Shown: piece by piece, positions 7,123 through 61,921 of the stretch
Position numbering within the stretch: position 1 is the stretch's first letter
Layout of the letters: each line of letters begins with the position of its first letter
Position numbers and translations under genes: made by a program
Notes under the pieces: generated by a model
The model's database searches: none
Told to the model about the DNA's origin: nothing
What the model saw: only the letters and a program-made list of their open reading frames with translations
DNA from: an uncultured Candidatus Binatia bacterium
GTDB taxonomy: Bacteria > Desulfobacterota > Binatia > Bin18
Assembly: GCA_958296235.1 (NCBI GenBank)
Contig: OY282457.1
Coordinates: 1,240,501 to 1,304,500 of the forward strand
DNA: 64,000 nucleotides
Direction: 5' to 3'

Positions 7123-8214
7123 TTATGTCCGAATATAGCCTGACACCACCACATCGTTCCCAATTTGATCCACCTGCATTGTATGGAGTTTTATTCCCTC
7201 GGCAACCCGTCCAATCCCTAACGGAGCGAGCATTGCCCGTCCATCACCGCCAAGCAGCACAGCGCCATAAAAAAAGAGGAGCTTATGCACCAGACCTTCG
7301 TGCAGGGCGACCGCCGCAACCTGTCCGCCCCCCTCGATCAGCACATGCTTTGCGCCGCGCTGAGCCAGGGTTTCGAGCACCGGTCGGAGGAGAATCTTTC
7401 CTCGCTTGCCAGGAAAGGCCAGGATTTCAACACCGGCCCGCTCGAAAGCGGCACCACGGAGTTGAGCGGCGCGGCGCGTTGTGGCAATCACGGTGGCGGC
7501 CTTGGAAGCGAGGCGGCACACCTGAGCCTGGGGGCTGATCCTGAGCCGCCCGTCAAGAATAACGCGCAGGGGATCCCGTCCCCCACGGATGCGACACGTC
7601 AACTGGGGGTCGTCGGCCTGTACGGTTTCTGCGCCGACCAGGACTGCGTCTGCCTGATTGCGCAACGCGTGGACTTTGCGCCGGGAGGCCGCTCCACTGA
7701 TCCAGCGGGCATCTCCACTCGCCGCTGCGATGCGGCCGTCAAGGGAAGCCGCCAATTTCAAGGTAACAAAGGGCAATCCGGTCTGGATCGCTACCGCAAA
7801 ATCCTCATTGGTCTGCTGGCACAGCTCTTTGAGCACGCCGGTCGTGACTGCAATGCCGGCCCGGCGCAGCCGCCGAATCCCACGCCCGCGAACGCGCGGA
7901 TTGGGGTCGGTCATGCCAATCACCACCCGCGCGACGCCGGCCTCAATCAGGGCCTGGGCACAGGGGGGCGTCCGGCCGTGGTGCGAGCACGGTTCCAGGT
8001 TGACGTACACAGTTGCCCCGCGAACCGGGTGGGTCGCTTTGCGCAGCGCTTCAATCTCGGCATGCGGCAGTCCCGCCCGCCGATGATAGCCCTCGCCAAT
8101 AATACGACCGCCGCGGGCAAGAACGGCGCCCACAACCGGGTTCGGACTCGTCCGCCCCTGCGCCCGCAGGGCCAGGTCCACCGCGCGCCGCATAAACACC
8201 TCATCAGTGTTCAT
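7123..8214 (-). CDS. ribD: Riboflavin deaminase/reductase RibD
   Basis: Bifunctional enzyme that deaminates the pyrimidine made by GTP cyclohydrolase II and then reduces its ribosyl side chain. N-terminal deaminase domain with the zinc motif HAEIEAL (about residue 50) and the [15 protein letters not shown] cysteines; C-terminal reductase domain starting at [16 protein letters not shown] with an [19 protein letters not shown] segment and a late [10 protein letters not shown] motif. Length of 363 residues is normal. Its start overlaps the nrdR stop in an ATGA. In related genomes ribE usually follows; here ribBA follows at once. Confidence 0.96.
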
Positions 8215-8720
8215 GATTTCGTCTTTTCCGGCTTTGCGCGTTGCGCCCGTGTGTCGTCATCCGTACTGCGTTCCTGAATGAGGTCCTTGAGCTCGGACAT
8301 GAACTCGTCCAGGTCCTGAAAAGAGCGATACACAGAAGAAAACCGGACATAGGCCACCTTGTCCAGATCGTACAAATGGCGCATGACTTCTTCGCCAATA
8401 ACGGCGCCCGAGATTTCTTTATCGCCCCGTCCCTGGAGCGCGCGCTCAATGCGATCCGCAATATCTTCTATGGTCTCAATGCTGATCGGACGTTTTTCAC
8501 ACGCTTTTTTGAGGCCGGTGATAATTTTCAGCCGATCGTAAGGCTCCCGCCGCCCGTCCTTCTTTACGACCAGGGGTAAAATTTCTTCAACCCGCTCATA
8601 CGTCGTAAAGCGTCGCTCACACTCCTCACATTCCCGTCTCCGGCGGGTGACATCACCCTCCCGGCTCAAACGAGAATCAATGACACGACTTTCCAGGTGG
8701 GAACAAAAGGGACACTTCAT
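8211..8720 (-). CDS. nrdR: Transcriptional repressor NrdR
   Basis: Zinc-finger/ATP-cone repressor of ribonucleotide reductase genes. From the ATG at 8720 the protein begins MKCPFC, with the zinc-ribbon cysteines at residues 3, 6, 31 and 34, followed by [11 protein letters not shown] and the ATP-cone ([16 protein letters not shown], then [12 protein letters not shown]). The frame continues upstream to 8783 but those residues come from the short repeat between nrdR and glyA, so the methionine at 8720 is chosen. The tail beyond residue 150 is charged and non-conserved. Confidence 0.95.
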
Positions 8721-8725
8721 ATAAG

Positions 8726-8798
8726 TAGTGGACAGTGGTGAGTGGTGAGTTATTGAGTAGAAAGAAGGCTGACCACTCATCACTAATCACTTGTCACT
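8726..8798. repeat. CACTCATCACT-type inverted repeat
   Basis: Between nrdR and glyA, an arm reading GTGGACAGTGGTGAGTGG is mirrored by CCACTCATCACTAATCACT, giving a loose inverted repeat. The same vocabulary recurs at 28301-28397, 31425-31453 and 62287-62330, always at gene ends, so this is a dispersed non-coding family. Confidence 0.6.
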
Positions 8799-8802
8799 CT
8801 CC

Positions 8803-10062
8803 TTAGGCGGTCGGCGCAACACGGTGGGCATAGACGGGGAACTGCTGGCACAACGCACGGACCTCTTCACCAATGGCAGTTAATCCCCGTTCATCGCCAA
8901 CTCGCTGCAGGGCGCGGCCAATGAGGTCGGCTATGCGCTCCATCTCGGCTTCTTTCATGCCCCGGCTCGTCACCGCCGGCGTGCCAATACGCACCCCACT
9001 GGTCACAAAGGGGGAGCGCGTATCAAAGGGAATCGCGTTTTTATTGACCGTAATCCGCGCTTGGTCCAGGGTTTCCTGCGCGACTTTCCCGGTCAGTTCA
9101 GTCTCGCGCAGATCGAGCAGCATCAGATGATTATCCGTGCCGCCCGAGACCAGGCGGAACCCCTGTCGGATAAGGCTGGCAGCCAGGGCTTGCGCATTGG
9201 CGATAATCTGCTGCTGATAGGCTTGAAACTCCGGTGTTGCCGCTTCCTTCAGCGCCACGGCCTTGGCCGCAATCACGTGCATCAGCGGCCCGCCCTGGTT
9301 GCCCGGAAAGACGGACGAATTCACGCTTTTCGCCAAATCCTGGCGGCACATAATCATCCCGCCGCGTGGCCCGCGCAACGTCTTATGGGTCGTGGTCGTG
9401 ACCAGGTCGGCATACGGCACGGGAGAGGGGTGCAGCCCGGCGGCCACCAGCCCGGCAAAGTGCGCGATATCGACCATCAACAGCGCCCCAACCTCGTCGG
9501 CGATGTCTCGAAAGGGCGCTGTGTCAATCTGGCGTGGATAGGCACTGTGTCCGGCCACGATCATCTTGGGCCGATGCTGACGCGCGAGTGCCGCAATCTC
9601 AGCGTAGTCAATCCGTTGGTTGTCCTCCCGGACGCCATAGGGGACAACCTGAAAGAATTTCCCGGAAAAATTGACCGGACTGCCGTGGGTGAGATGGCCA
9701 CCGTGCGATAAGTTCATGCTCAGGATGGTATCTCCCGGCTGGAGCTGAGAAAAATAGGCGGCCATATTGGCCTGGGCTCCAGAGTGCGGCTGGACATTAG
9801 CGTGCTCGGCGCCGAACAGCGCCTTGGCGCGGTCAATGGCGAGCTGTTCGACCACATCCACATACTCGCAGCCGCCGTAGTAGCGCTTCCGGGGATAGCC
9901 TTCCGCATACTTATTCGTGAGCACGGACCCCTGCGCCTCCAGCACAGCCTCGCTCACCACGTTCTCTGAGGCGATGAGCTCAAGGTTGTACTCCTGTCGT
10001 TGCGTCTCCTCTTGAATGGCGGCGTAGACATCAGGGTCGTGCTGGGCGAGCGGACTTGTCAT
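8803..10062 (-). CDS. glyA: Serine hydroxymethyltransferase
   Basis: PLP enzyme that interconverts serine and glycine and loads one-carbon units on tetrahydrofolate. It has the PLP-lysine motif [13 protein letters not shown], the early [12 protein letters not shown] segment, [17 protein letters not shown], and the late [14 protein letters not shown]. The ATG at 10062 (MTSPLAQ) is favoured over an upstream frame-extending start because AAGGAG lies 7 bases before it. About 419 residues. A terminator-like hairpin separates it from acpP, so it may have its own promoter. Confidence 0.97.
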
Positions 10063-10134
10063 ACCAGTGCTCCTTCTCCCTCCCATCCGGCGATTTTCAC
10101 AGCGAACCGTTCCCCTTCCTCTCTACAGATATAG

Positions 10135-10173
10135 AAAAATCGCAGGGCTCCAGAGAGACCACTGCGATTCTTT
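10135..10173 (-). terminator. Rho-independent terminator after acpP
   Basis: On the minus strand AATCGCAG (10169-10162) pairs with CTGCGATT (10145-10138), eight perfect pairs, followed by a TTTTTCT run. It lies 40 bases beyond the acpP stop and upstream of glyA. Confidence 0.75.
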
Positions 10174-10207
10174 CGGTCTGGACACTCCTGAGCCCGTATA
10201 CGGTCGG

Positions 10208-10447
10208 CTATTGATGGCTTTCGATATAGTCGATGACGTTTCGGACCGTCCGAATCTTTTCCGCCTGTTCGTCAGAGATTTCGGTATCGTACTCTTCTTC
10301 CAGAGCCATCACGAGTTCGACAATATCCAGCGAGTCTGCGCCAAGATCTTCGATAAACGAAGAATCCAGGCTGACCTCGTCCTCGCTTACCCCCAATTGC
10401 TCACAGATAATTTCCTTGACGCGCGCCTCGGTCGAAGCTGCTGCCAT
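10208..10447 (-). CDS. acpP: Acyl carrier protein
   Basis: Carries growing fatty acyl chains on a phosphopantetheine arm. The 79-residue acidic protein has the attachment motif [18 protein letters not shown], with the modified Ser in DSL, after [16 protein letters not shown]. The start at 10447 is set by an AGGAGGT site 7 bases upstream; the frame extends to 10504 without support. It follows fabG by about 60 bases. In related genomes fabF normally comes next, but here a terminator and glyA follow. Confidence 0.97.
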
Positions 10448-56096: not shown

Positions 56097-56320
56097 AACA
56101 CCCTCGCACTCTGCATCTACTCCTCTGCTTCCATACCGCGATCAGAGGGGCGAGACAAGCGTGCAGCCGCCCCACCTGTCACCCTCACCCAGACATCACC
56201 CTGAACTGCCTGTACCAATTGCCAAGGACAAAGTACGTCTGGTATCCCTATGCGCACAGTCCCCACACGCGACCAGATGATATCTGGTCAAGCGGGGATA
56301 GCTCTCTCTACGGAGGCAGT

Positions 56321-58915
56321 ATGCCAGACACAGCGTCCTATCGGCTACCGGAGACCGCAACTCCTGAGCGGTACGTGATTCGCCTGACTCCCGATCTCAC
56401 TCATTTCACTTTTACGGGTGAGGAAACGATCGCCCTCATCGTCCATGAGGCCACCCCCACCCTCGTCCTGAACGCCTGTGAGCTGACGATTCAGCAGGTT
56501 GCACTGACTGATGAAACAGGCGTCACCCAAGCCGGCAACGCCACCCTTGACGAGCAAAACGAGCGGGCGATTCTCGATTTCTCGCAGGTCATCAGCCCCG
56601 GCCGCTATACCTTACGACTCGCTTTTGCAGGCATACTCAACGACAAATTACGGGGCTTTTACCGCAGCGCCTATAAGAACGCTGAGGGCGAGGACGTCAT
56701 CCTGGCCTCAACCCAGTTTGAGTCTACCGATGCCCGGCGGGCCTTTCCGTGTTGGGACGAGCCGGCAGCCAAAGCCGTCTTTCAGGCCACGCTGGTAATT
56801 GATGAGGGACTGACGGCCATCTCCAATACGGCCGTGGTGAATGAAAGTCCGATCCCTGGGACGGGGAAGAAAGCCGTTGTGTTTGCCGACACAATAAAGA
56901 TGTCAACCTATTTGGTGGCCTTCATCGTGGGGGAATTTGAAGCCAGCGAAGCCGTGCATATTGATGGCAAACCCCTGCGCGTGTGGGCCGTACCCGGCAA
57001 GCAGCATCTCACTGCATTCGGGCGGGCCATCGGCGCGGCGTCGCTGCAATTCTTCAGCGACTACTACGGGCGGCCCTATCCCGGCGACAAGCTCGACCTG
57101 ATTGCCATCCCGGATTTCGCCGCCGGCGCAATGGAGAACCTGGGTGCCATTACGTTTCGGGAAACCGCCCTGCTCATTGATGAGCAGACGGCCGCCCGGA
57201 GTGAGCTGGAACGCGTTGCCGACGTGGTCGCACACGAGAACGCGCATATGTGGTTTGGCGACCTGGTAACCATGCGCTGGTGGAACGGCCTGTGGCTCAA
57301 CGAGGCGTTTGCCACATTCATGGAAATGATGGCCGTCGACGCCTGGAAGCCCGAATGGCGGCGCTGGACCAGCTTTGCCGTCTCGCGCGCCGCGGCGCTA
57401 CAGGTTGACGGCCTGCACAGCTCCCGCCCTATCGAGTTTCCGGTCGCACACCCGGACGAAGCGGCCGGCATGTTCGATATTCTGACCTATGAGAAAGGCG
57501 CTGCCGTCCTGCGCATGCTGGAGCAATACCTCGGCCCCCAGGCCTTTCAAAGAGGCATCAGCCGTTATCTCGGGAAACACGAATATGCCAACGCGGAAAC
57601 CACCGACCTGTGGGATGCTCTGGAGGAAGCAACCCAACAGCCGGTCCGGTCCATGATGGATAGCTGGGTCTTCCAGGCCGGCTATCCTTTGATTTCCGTT
57701 GCTGTGGACGGCGCTGAGCTGGTGATTTCTCAACAGCCGTTTCACTATGTGCAAACCCGTCCTGAGCCGAGCCGAAGGGACGACGATAACCAGGCTGAAG
57801 ACAAACGCTGGCAGGCCCCGCTTTTTATCAAAACCAAGAGAGCCGCTAAAACCGAGAGTCAGACTGCCCTGCTGACCACTGGCGAATTGCGCCTCCCCCT
57901 CTCAGAGAGGCCGGACTGGGTCGTCGTCAACGCGGGGGGACACGGCTTTTATCGGGTCCGGTACGCGCCAGACCTGCTTGGCCAACTGACCGCAGATGTC
58001 TACACCCAGCTCTCGCCGATCGAGCGCTTCAACCTGCTCAATGATACCTGGGCGACCGCGCAGGCCGGTCTGACGCCACTGCCCACCTATCTCGACCTCC
58101 TGCCCGTATTCCGTGAAGAGTCCGATCACAATGTGTGGACCGCCATTCTCGGCTCGTGTCATTATCTCTACCGCCTGCTCAGCCCGGAACAGCGGCCGGC
58201 CTTGCAGCGGCATGTCCGCGGTCTGCTCACTCCGCTCAGCCAGCAGTTGGGTTGGTCTCCACACGCTGAGGAAGATGCCCTTATCGGCCAGCTCAGAGGA
58301 GAGCTGCTGAGCGCGCTGGGCGTCCTGGGAGACGATGCAGCCACCCAGGTGCAGGCACATGCGCTTTATACGCAGTATCAGGCCGATCGGAACGCCGTGG
58401 ACCGCAATCTGGTTCCCGCGCTGGTGTCGATTCTTGCCCATACTGGCGACGCTGCGGTGTATGACGAATTTCGTCAGGTTTCGCACAACGCCGCAACACC
58501 GCAAGAAGAGCAGCGCTATCAGTTCGCGTTGGCCGGCTTCCGTCAACCCGACCTCCTTGCCCGGACTCTGGACATGACGCTCAACGGCGAGGTTCGCACC
58601 CAGAACGCGCCCTACCTGATGCGGTCAATGTTGATGAACACCGAGGGCCGCGAGTTGGCCTGGCATTTTCTCCAGGAACGCTGGGACGACATGCTGGAGA
58701 AATTCCCGGACGTGTCCATCGTCCGCATGTGCGAAGGGATCGTCGCGCTCGTCACACCCGCGCTTGAGGCCCAGGTCAACGCCTTCTTCACCGCCCACCC
58801 CGTCCCGAACGCCGGCAAGATGATGGAGCAACACCTGGAAAAGCTGCGCGTCGCGGTGGCCTGCCAGCAACGCGAGGCCGAGAACCTGCGCGAGTATTTT
58901 GAGCGGACGGGATAG
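56321..58915 (+). CDS. M1 family aminopeptidase
   Basis: Zinc aminopeptidase of 864 residues, similar to puromycin-sensitive aminopeptidase and PepN. The exopeptidase motif is GAMENLGAITFRE, the zinc site HENAHMWFGDLV near residue 304 (HExxH) with the third ligand in LNEAFATFMEMM, and a C-terminal helical ERAP1-like domain. No signal peptide from the ATG at 56321, which has GGAGG 6 bases upstream; the frame extends to 56219 without support. Convergent with the small genes at 58.8-59.3 kb, whose first frame overlaps its 3' end. Confidence 0.93.
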   Translation: MPDTASYRLPETATPERYVIRLTPDLTHFTFTGEETIALIVHEATPTLVLNACELTIQQVALTDETGVTQAGNATLDEQNERAILDFSQVISPGRYTLRLAFAGILNDKLRGFYRSAYKNAEGEDVILASTQFESTDARRAFPCWDEPAAKAVFQATLVIDEGLTAISNTAVVNESPIPGTGKKAVVFADTIKMSTYLVAFIVGEFEASEAVHIDGKPLRVWAVPGKQHLTAFGRAIGAASLQFFSDYYGRPYPGDKLDLIAIPDFAAGAMENLGAITFRETALLIDEQTAARSELERVADVVAHENAHMWFGDLVTMRWWNGLWLNEAFATFMEMMAVDAWKPEWRRWTSFAVSRAAALQVDGLHSSRPIEFPVAHPDEAAGMFDILTYEKGAAVLRMLEQYLGPQAFQRGISRYLGKHEYANAETTDLWDALEEATQQPVRSMMDSWVFQAGYPLISVAVDGAELVISQQPFHYVQTRPEPSRRDDDNQAEDKRWQAPLFIKTKRAAKTESQTALLTTGELRLPLSERPDWVVVNAGGHGFYRVRYAPDLLGQLTADVYTQLSPIERFNLLNDTWATAQAGLTPLPTYLDLLPVFREESDHNVWTAILGSCHYLYRLLSPEQRPALQRHVRGLLTPLSQQLGWSPHAEEDALIGQLRGELLSALGVLGDDAATQVQAHALYTQYQADRNAVDRNLVPALVSILAHTGDAAVYDEFRQVSHNAATPQEEQRYQFALAGFRQPDLLARTLDMTLNGEVRTQNAPYLMRSMLMNTEGRELAWHFLQERWDDMLEKFPDVSIVRMCEGIVALVTPALEAQVNAFFTAHPVPNAGKMMEQHLEKLRVAVACQQREAENLREYFERTG

Positions 58916-59063
58916 CGTTGGGGAGCCTTTTGCCCTTCTTCTGGGCGATTTGTTCAAGCTGGCGCTGGAGCTTCGCGTCAAGGTAAATGGGCAGCCGCAA
59001 TTCAGTTCCCTTGCGGTAAAACTTTCCTCTCTCGGCCTTGGAAAAATCATATTTACATTTCAT
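58788..59063 (-). CDS. Truncated CopG-like antitoxin fragment
   Basis: Starts MKCKYDFSKAERGKFYRKGT, followed by ELRLPIYLDAKLQRQLEQIAQKKGKR: the first part of a ribbon-helix-helix antitoxin family. After about residue 46 the frame runs antisense into the aminopeptidase 3' end (from LPNAIPSAQ) and loses all similarity, so the second helix and C-terminus are missing. Best read as a 3'-truncated gene. Confidence 0.5.
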   Translation of the reverse strand: MKCKYDFSKAERGKFYRKGTELRLPIYLDAKLQRQLEQIAQKKGKRLPNAIPSAQNTRAGSRPRVAGRPPRRAAFPGVAPSSCRRSGRGGR

Positions 59064-59091
59064 GGGCTATTTCTCTTGGGAATAGCGCGCA

Positions 59092-59322
59092 TTATTCAGG
59101 TGAGGCCTCCTGCCATATCCGTTGGGTACGCAGGCGTAAAAGCGATAACAACTCGGAGAGTTCGACGAGCCCTTCCGCCTCCGTGCGCTCGGCAGGCGTG
59201 AGGGCTTCCCCTCGATCCTGTCGGTCCAGGAGGTCATGCAAGCGTTTGTTCACCCCCTGCGGCAGCTTGAATCGATCGAAATCGTTTGGCATTTCAAACT
59301 CGACGAGAACGTGCTGAGACAT
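59092..59322 (-). CDS. Small acidic protein of unknown function
   Basis: 76 residues, helical, with KLPQGVNKRLHDLLDRQDRGE, LTPAERTEAEGLVELSELLS and LLRLRTQRI: a pattern of short proteins found beside small nuclease or toxin genes in many bacteria. AAGGA lies 9 bases before the ATG, so it looks translated. Lies between the HNH fragment and the truncated antitoxin on the same strand. A partner or antitoxin role is inference. Confidence 0.6.
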   Translation of the reverse strand: MSQHVLVEFEMPNDFDRFKLPQGVNKRLHDLLDRQDRGEALTPAERTEAEGLVELSELLSLLRLRTQRIWQEASPE

Positions 59323-59380
59323 CGGTGCGTTCCTTCTATAAGATATTTCATTATAGAGTGTTTTGGGCGCTCTGTTCGAG

Positions 59381-59638
59381 CTATCGTGACTCCCTGTGTA
59401 AAAGTGCTTCGACTTCTTTGATACGGAATGCGAGCTTTCTCTTACGAATATGGATAACCGCGTGGCAATTAGGACACACCGGACGGAGGTCTTTCACTGG
59501 ATTAACATCGTGCCTCGTCCCTATTTCCGATAGCGGTTTGACATGGTGCACGTGAATAAAGCCCTCGGCGACCTCACCGTATGTGTCCCCAAACGAGAAG
59601 CCGCAAATGCAGCACTTCGTACCGTAGTGGGCAATGCA
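59381..59638 (-). pseudogene. HNH endonuclease domain split off by an amber codon
   Basis: 85 codons in the same frame as the preceding lysK reading frame, separated from it only by the TAG at 59641-59639. The sequence CIAHYGTKCCICGFSFGDTY, then GFIHVHHVKPLSEIG and DLRPVCPNCHAVIH, is a complete HNH/zinc-finger nuclease domain (Cys pairs CICG and CPNC, His-His motif HVHH). The codons just before the TAG (QRVTVNGYERNPQLRK) match the part of this nuclease family that normally leads into CIAHYG, so the TAG lies inside the domain. No start of its own is visible. Confidence 0.75.
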
Positions 59639-61921
59639 CTACTTGCGTAATTGTGGGTTGCGTTCGTACCCGTTGACAGTAACTCGCTGTTTCGCTCCTT
59701 CTGGCAGAGACACATTTTCATTGATCTCGTCAGGATAGTAGTTCGGATCGTTTTTTCGATATGTCGCCGCGCTAGTGAACAGGATATTCTCGTGTCTTCG
59801 AAAGCTTACGCTTTTTGGCTTTCCGTTTGATCCTAGGACAGGAATATAACCATGAGCCTCCATAACCTTGCGAACCATCCCGCCGATCTTTCTTTTCCAA
59901 CCATCCTGCCTCATCTCCTCGCCAAATCTCGCTAGGATTTGCTTTTGGACCCACTTGCTACTAAGAGCGGGACGCCCACAGTCACTGGCCTCCTTCATAT
60001 ATCCAAGAGCAACATCAGTTCCAAGAAAATCCTGCACCCGTTCCTCTAGGTCAAACAAGAGCGGCCTCACTTTCTGCCCATATTTCTCTTTCACTAACCC
60101 AACATAGACCTGAGCCGCTGCATTGCAGGCCGCTTGCTCGGTAACCTCTCCCAACTGCACACGCTGCATATGAGTTCGGTTGTCCTCCAGTGCAACCACG
60201 CACTCCACGCCCCCCAAGCGGGCTGAGGCTCCCTCACCCCGACCTTCTCCCTCTGGGAGATGGGGCAGGAGTTTGGCTTCAGAGGTCATCAGTTTGATCT
60301 GGTCCCGGCGCTCCGTCAACCAAGCGTCGAACTCCTCCTGGCTGATACTCGTCTCGCGCCAGAACGCGGCTTGATCGTAGGGCAGTTCCCGGAAACGGCG
60401 CAGCAGAAAGTCGCGGGCCAGAAAGGCCAGCAGATTGCCGGCCTTGGGTCCTGAATCACGATCGAGCAAGACCCGATAGATGGCCTGAAAGGCGCGCGCC
60501 GGCGCGAGCGGAGTGAGACGCGCGGTGTCGAATAGCGCGGCCTGCAAGGCGTTATCGTCCGGCGGAATATCGGGCAGGCGGGCGGCGAGCTGGTGCAGAA
60601 AGGCGCGTTGGCTGGCGGTTAGTTCCTGGGCCCGCTCCGGTAGCCTGTCCTGCAAGACGATTCGTTCCTCGGGGCTGGCGTAATGCTCCAGCCAGTAGTG
60701 GGCCGCTTGGGCCCGGCGTTCAAGCTGCTGCCGCTCAATGGCCGTCAGGGCTGCGCCCTTGCGCTTTTCGATCTCTCGGGTGAGGTCAAGATGCGGCAGC
60801 TGCGCAATCGTTGCGACCAGCTGAAAATCCGCAGCGTAGAAATCATCCGTCAGGGTCGTCTGTGCCAGTTGATACACCCGCTTATCGTCTTCCGATACTT
60901 TGGGATCGCGATACGCGCGGGTATGGAATCGGTCAAAGTCATTGAAGATTTTGATAATCGATTTTTCGTCTGGAGAGAAATTCACCGGCTGTTTGGGCTG
61001 GGTGCGGATCATGACGAACCGCAGGATTTCGGGCGGCAGGAAATCTGCCATGTCCCGCGCCGAAACCCCCAGCCCCTTGGACGAGCTCATCTTGGCGCCG
61101 CCGACCAGAAAAAACTCATACGGGATATTGCGCGGTGGAGCCTGATTAAAAATCCGACGCAAACAGGCCGCGGCCACGTCCCGAGAGCCACCCTTTGTGG
61201 TGTGGTCTTTGCCCGCGCCCTCAATCGTAATAGGGAAGGTTTTCCACTTTGCGGTCCATTCCAGCTTCCACGGTAATTTGCCCTTGCCGTCAAACGGCGA
61301 AACCTTCCCCTGGTAGCCGCACCCGGTAGCCCAGGCGACCAGATCGGGAAGGCAGGTATAGGTGACTTCTTTGCCGTCGTAGTCGCTGACCTCGGTCGTG
61401 CCAATGCGTCCGCACTGCTCGCACACGGCCTGGAAGGGATACCAGTTATCCGGCCGCTCGGCCTTACTGACCTCTTTGTAGACGCGCCGAACGGTCGCCG
61501 CGTTGCGCAGAATAGCGTCAATGGCCTCGTTGAATTGGCCCGAGCGGTAGATATCGCGCAGCCGGTAGGTCTCGGCCTCGACATTCAGGTCGCGGAACAC
61601 GCTGAAAAAATCTTGAATATAATGTTCGGAGATATCAGAAAAGGAAGAGCCCGGCGGCGGCGGCACCTGGCACAGCGGCACGCCGAGATAGGGCCGGAAA
61701 AACTCTTCTTCGCCGGCCGGCAGTTCATCCAGCGGGTCGTAGTCATCAACCCCAAAGGTATACCGGACCGGCAGGCCACGGGCTTGAATAGCCCGGAAAA
61801 CGACATCGTGAATGAGTACGCCCCGCAGGGCGCCAACGTGAGCCCGGCCCGAGGGGGTCTTCGAGTCGTTGATGAGTTGTTCTCCCTCAACCTGGGCTGC
61901 AATTTTATCACACCAAAGCAT
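59639..61921 (-). CDS. lysK: Class I lysyl-tRNA synthetase with C-terminal foreign extension
   Basis: Residues 1 to about 545 are a class I LysRS, the archaeal-type enzyme: KTPSGRAHVGALRG (HIGH-like), CEQCGRIGTTEV zinc region, DHTTKGGSRDVA, KMSSSKGLGVSARDM (KMSKS-like, 277-283), then an alpha-helical anticodon domain ending WRETSISQEEFDAWL. After a stretch read from a low-complexity repeat (LPHLPEGEGRGEG, about 553-565) follow some 190 residues foreign to known LysRS; the last 40 (DPNYYPDEIN...RNPQLRK) belong to an HNH nuclease family whose remainder lies past the amber stop. ATG at 61921 has GGAGAGG upstream. Whether the tail is translated as part of the synthetase is unknown. Confidence 0.85.
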   Translation of the reverse strand: MLWCDKIAAQVEGEQLINDSKTPSGRAHVGALRGVLIHDVVFRAIQARGLPVRYTFGVDDYDPLDELPAGEEEFFRPYLGVPLCQVPPPPGSSFSDISEHYIQDFFSVFRDLNVEAETYRLRDIYRSGQFNEAIDAILRNAATVRRVYKEVSKAERPDNWYPFQAVCEQCGRIGTTEVSDYDGKEVTYTCLPDLVAWATGCGYQGKVSPFDGKGKLPWKLEWTAKWKTFPITIEGAGKDHTTKGGSRDVAAACLRRIFNQAPPRNIPYEFFLVGGAKMSSSKGLGVSARDMADFLPPEILRFVMIRTQPKQPVNFSPDEKSIIKIFNDFDRFHTRAYRDPKVSEDDKRVYQLAQTTLTDDFYAADFQLVATIAQLPHLDLTREIEKRKGAALTAIERQQLERRAQAAHYWLEHYASPEERIVLQDRLPERAQELTASQRAFLHQLAARLPDIPPDDNALQAALFDTARLTPLAPARAFQAIYRVLLDRDSGPKAGNLLAFLARDFLLRRFRELPYDQAAFWRETSISQEEFDAWLTERRDQIKLMTSEAKLLPHLPEGEGRGEGASARLGGVECVVALEDNRTHMQRVQLGEVTEQAACNAAAQVYVGLVKEKYGQKVRPLLFDLEERVQDFLGTDVALGYMKEASDCGRPALSSKWVQKQILARFGEEMRQDGWKRKIGGMVRKVMEAHGYIPVLGSNGKPKSVSFRRHENILFTSAATYRKNDPNYYPDEINENVSLPEGAKQRVTVNGYERNPQLRK
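60231..60269. repeat. Low-complexity palindromic repeat inside the lysK frame
   Basis: CCCTCACCCCGACCTTCTCC followed by CTCTGGGAGATGGGG, a type of short imperfect inverted repeat common in intergenic DNA of such genomes; here it is in frame and marks the approximate junction between synthetase and nuclease-like tail. Confidence 0.5.

Follow-up and report, generated by a model that had tools for sequence, protein, structure and literature searches.

Loss of the lysK stop codon beside a cargo hotspot and a probably freshly broken McrA-type HNH nuclease in a Binatia bacterium

Results

The lysK frame and its run-on

The window, that is, the whole 64,000-nucleotide stretch of the Candidatus Binatia genome analysed here, contains a minus-strand reading frame that opens with ATG at 61921 and stays open until a TAG at 59641-59639. 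The same frame continues beyond this TAG for 85 codons, up to a second stop at 59383-59381. The features of the locus are listed in Table 1.

Table 1. Features of the lysK-pepN region in the window
Feature	Position	Strand	Basis
Aminopeptidase gene (pepN-like) flanking the hotspot in convergent orientation	56219..58915	+	pepN borders the same interval in relatives
Truncated BrnA-like antitoxin remnant	58928..59063	-	G004 and G007 have a complete BrnT/BrnA-like pair at this locus
Small antitoxin-like ORF, orphaned	59092..59322	-	ORFs of the interval; no Pfam match
Terminal TAG stop of the nuclease frame	59381..59383	-	ORF reading
Orphaned McrA-type HNH catalytic part, 85 codons	59384..59638	-	Pfam HNH, PDB 6ghc, model
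In-frame TAG splitting the nuclease	59639..59641	-	ORF reading; codon comparison
Part of the nuclease C-terminal module before the TAG (linker, first helix)	59642..59746	-	Alignments; model helix 139-149
Helical N-terminal domain of the nuclease (about 100 aa), which has become the C-terminal tail of the lysK frame	59747..60091	-	Stand-alone homologues
GTG preceded by an AGAGG motif; uncertain candidate for the nuclease's own start	60035..60037	-	Codon listing
Break point: last lysK-homologous codon (610)/first foreign codon	60089..60094	-	lysK 3'-end alignment
Conserved part of lysK (class I lysyl-tRNA synthetase), codons 1-610	60092..61921	-	Pfam PF01921, TIGR00467, PDB 1irx
REP-type palindromic repeat, in frame in the lysK C-terminal linker	60231..60260		Genome copy count

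The product of the first part of the frame was matched by the class I lysyl-tRNA synthetase (LysRS) families PF01921 (E 7e-88; 295 bits against a cut-off of 27) and TIGR00467 (344 bits against a cut-off of 148), and by PDB 1irx over residues 11-511. It carries the KMSKS-type signature as KMSSSKG at residues 277-283, the same form as in the congener G002, and the gene is 88-92% identical to those of six congeners. As a search of the genome detected no class II LysRS above the cut-off and lysK was the only LysRS gene found, lysK should be essential.

The genus-typical C-terminus of the synthetase reads approximately ...VECVVELDDNRTHMQRVQLGEFTDQAAF...YVESVTGG followed by the stop. Alignment of the lysK 3' ends showed that the gene in the window follows this C-terminus through codon 610 and departs from it thereafter. 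The comparison across relatives had been proposed in a preliminary description of this DNA. In all six congeners lysK stops no more than about five codons away from the break point, near codon 610, and none of them is fused. Likewise, no fused lysK was present in the 10 other lysK-bearing genomes of the family. The preliminary description had let lysK run on into about 190 non-synthetase residues; the open run-on itself held, and its length was reduced to about 150 codons (611-760), since residues ~569-610 form the true C-terminus of lysK, which every congener conserves. This C-terminus had probably been counted as foreign because an in-frame REP-type repeat precedes it, separating it from the main body of the protein.

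The core of this repeat occurs in 83 copies in the genome at no more than two mismatches, against 0 for the reversed control. A stretch derived from the repeat is also present in lysK of G005 and G002, and is not found in lysK of G001, G003, G004 and G006. The linker of the G004 gene (L033) contains a short tandem duplication, RPPATKPKPLLHAKIIG-like, a further sign that the C-terminal linker of lysK tolerates insertions. REPs within ORFs are on record, with tRNA synthetases listed among their targets (PMC3733652). The repeat in lysK is a separate matter from the fusion of lysK with the nuclease.

A cargo hotspot between lysK and pepN

The gap between lysK and pepN (58916-60091 in the window; L029-L036 in the relatives compared) holds toxin-antitoxin or nuclease cargo, and almost every genome carries a different set. 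G004 and G007 have BrnT and a BrnA-like protein here, G012 has HigB and an HNH nuclease, G002 a different HNH gene, and G006 a weak PD-(D/E)XK match. In G003 the site is occupied by a 7.9-kb island that encodes an HNH nuclease together with a cytosine methylase and an ATPase recognised as GHKL-type by inspection; the methylase and then the ATPase-like gene lie beside the nuclease (L031, reverse strand, oriented 7265-10246), and this content is possibly a defence island. G005 represents the empty site, in which lysK adjoins pepN without cargo; it lacks about 1,175 bp that separate the pepN flank from the end of lysK homology in the window. In the window's own interval no BrnT was found. A relative of the small antitoxin-like ORF lies directly 5' of another HNH gene in G002. 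The edges of the cargo were also inspected for boundary repeats or a target-site duplication that would reveal how it arrived, and no direct repeats were found, a point that weighs against insertion. The lysK-pepN gap is thus a cargo hotspot in this genus, with decaying contents.

These comparisons also bear on an assembly join of two unrelated places. Such a join would account for the sharp break of homology at codon 610 and for the different composition beyond it, GC3 being 0.53 in the insert and 0.70 in lysK. However, this locus also houses related nucleases in G003 and G012, and both flanks of the locus in the window are collinear with those of the congeners, so that misassembly is scarcely credible.

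The nuclease and its relatives

The foreign part of the frame was translated through the TAG for searches and one fold only. Rereading of the frame upheld the previously described single TAG followed by 85 further codons of an HNH nuclease. Pfam HNH was matched at residues 770-821 (E 6e-5), entirely past the in-frame TAG. The catalytic and zinc motifs HVHH, CxxC and CPNCH are present and every one of them is also located after it. The profile of the nuclease family matched McrA (PDB 6ghc, E 7.5e-7), PADLOC assigned mREase_IV (E 1.7e-5) restricted to the HNH part, and the model showed a pLDDT of 85-95 across most of the HNH core. A Foldseek search with this model returned nothing at E 0.001; the top entry, above that threshold, was Cap5, another HNH enzyme (E 0.12, probability 0.97). 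Over its last 120 residues the protein shares approximately 70% identity with the nucleases of G003 and G012, both encoded at this locus by intact, separate genes with their own frames.

The N-terminal domain of the nuclease had no match in Pfam. It occurs as a small stand-alone protein in G007 (L025:1423-1722) and G004 (L154:1459-1794), the only occurrences besides the window in a class-wide search, and stand-alone homologues are also carried by Lelliottia and Acinetobacter plasmids. A mixed alignment that misplaced the stand-alone homologues on the HNH part was left out for this domain. The domain was not found in the viral contigs searched, and phages contained only the HNH part, at low identity. 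The members of the family from other phyla have unrelated N-terminal domains, some of which appeared EVE-like by eye. EVE-HNH enzymes are established modification-dependent nucleases (PMC7897488). A homologue from a Limnoglobus MAG (L052:1531-1878) also contains one in-frame stop, located elsewhere in the sequence.

Among the candidate starts of the nuclease, the one with the best ribosome-binding motif is GTG 60037. As the homologues hint at a start of the domain further upstream, the native start of the nuclease may have been lost at the junction with lysK.

The in-frame TAG

The preliminary description had placed the TAG within a conserved stretch, and the alignments bore this out. Both relatives, G003 and G012, have a glutamine codon at this position, and in the remaining homologues the residue is mostly K, R, A, E or Q. 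The position falls in the model helix 139-149, which enters the HNH core, so a product ending at the TAG would be devoid of the catalytic motif. No restart after the TAG would give a complete HNH domain; the next candidate starts fall within the HNH motif. The ratio dN/dS was 0.34 before and 0.31 after the TAG in comparison with G003, and 0.15 and 0.16, respectively, in comparison with G012. These low values, alike on both sides, indicated that selection acted on the nuclease through most of its history and that the break is recent.

Regulated or leaky read-through of the TAG, yielding some LysRS-nuclease fusion, had been offered earlier as a possibility, and the frame after the TAG indeed stays in register through a complete HNH domain. 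Nevertheless, TAG is an ordinary stop here, terminating 12 of the 31 long non-overlapping frames of the window, and the arrangement of lysK and nuclease is not conserved in the family. The predicted RNA fold downstream of the TAG was unremarkable (z -0.5), and Rfam gave no credible match around it, either at the gathering score or at E up to 1. The genome was also searched for an amber suppressor, another proposal of the preliminary description: ARAGORN typed 46 tRNA matches, and a CUA anticodon was absent from all of them. This list is without Ile(GAU) and Ala(UGC), so that the tRNA inventory may be slightly incomplete. A search of the genome for the pyrrolysine synthetase PylS was also negative. 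With the pre-TAG product lacking the catalytic core, read-through was abandoned as extremely improbable.

Alternatively, the TAG could be a sequencing or consensus error, the intact nuclease being translated as a LysRS fusion or from an internal start. The frame has only one stop in 236 codons, and the 235 intact codons are compatible with a live gene plus one base error, which counts against decay; the signature of selection, alike before and after the TAG, points the same way. On the other hand, the genome carrying the lysK-nuclease frame is a single contig of 4.62 Mb, and the substitution preserves the frame. Errors in long reads are typically indels. The branch of the window has also accumulated 14 private residue changes, some at conserved sites, against 8 in G003, a difference that is not significant. 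An error at the TAG was consequently judged unlikely, yet it is the least improbable of the alternatives.

Consequence for the synthetase

The known LysRS models stop at residue 511, about 100 residues ahead of the break, and the tail of lysK is variable among congeners and tolerates repeats. An extension of 150 residues is therefore likely to be tolerated. We infer that the 760-residue LysRS is made and active; judged from the sequence, it probably functions in the cell while carrying 150 inert residues at its C-terminus. A more far-reaching idea is that this tail, derived from the N-terminal domain of the nuclease, has become a permanent and now functional new domain of LysRS. The long product must be tolerated, since the enzyme is essential and single. 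However, the tail is absent in every relative compared and is cut off at an arbitrary point within a helix of the nuclease module, which makes such an adoption very unlikely.

Discussion

The locus is best explained, with high probability, by cargo at the lysK 3' end that overwrote the lysK stop, the nuclease then becoming a pseudogene by a recent nonsense mutation. In an order of events that we infer, a stretch of approximately 1.2 kb with a McrA-type HNH nuclease and toxin-antitoxin remnants would have settled in the lysK-pepN gap. The last few codons of lysK, together with the stop, would have been removed when this stretch arrived or by a deletion along its edge, so that lysK came to read in frame into the nuclease. 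A single substitution would later have created the TAG upstream of the catalytic core, leaving the nuclease dead or dying. The earlier suggestion of a nuclease gene placed at the lysK 3' end and later inactivated was thus supported by the intact separate relatives at the same locus, the empty site in G005, and the glutamine codons at the position of the TAG. The result looks like ordinary gene decay and not a designed synthetase-nuclease fusion; the loss of a stop codon beside a hotspot, together with a freshly broken McrA-type nuclease, is a real but ordinary event.

The locus gives a clean snapshot of how cargo beside an essential gene can erase a stop codon and lengthen a protein. It is also a warning that open frames crossing gene borders should not be taken as functional fusions. 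The lysK-pepN gap, a small hotspot in Binatota for nucleases and toxin-antitoxin modules, could be mined.

When compared with known systems, the repeat in lysK resembles the intragenic REP elements (PMC3733652; Rickettsia RPE) in being a dispersed palindrome placed in frame in a synthetase gene, and differs in repeat sequence and phylum. The synthetase shares with class I LysRS (LysRS1; PDB 1irx) the whole catalytic body and has the usual length up to codon 610, but it has lost its stop and gained 150 foreign codons in frame. The nuclease differs from the McrA-type restriction enzymes (E. coli McrA, 6ghc; the EVE-HNH enzyme VcaM4I, PMC7897488) in its small helical N-terminal domain, which has no Pfam match and is at best a putative reader of modified DNA such as SRA, EVE or NEco, and in the interruption of its frame by the TAG at 59639-59641. 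In contrast, it shares with them the C-terminal HNH module, and its family, like theirs, joins this module to varied N-terminal domains.
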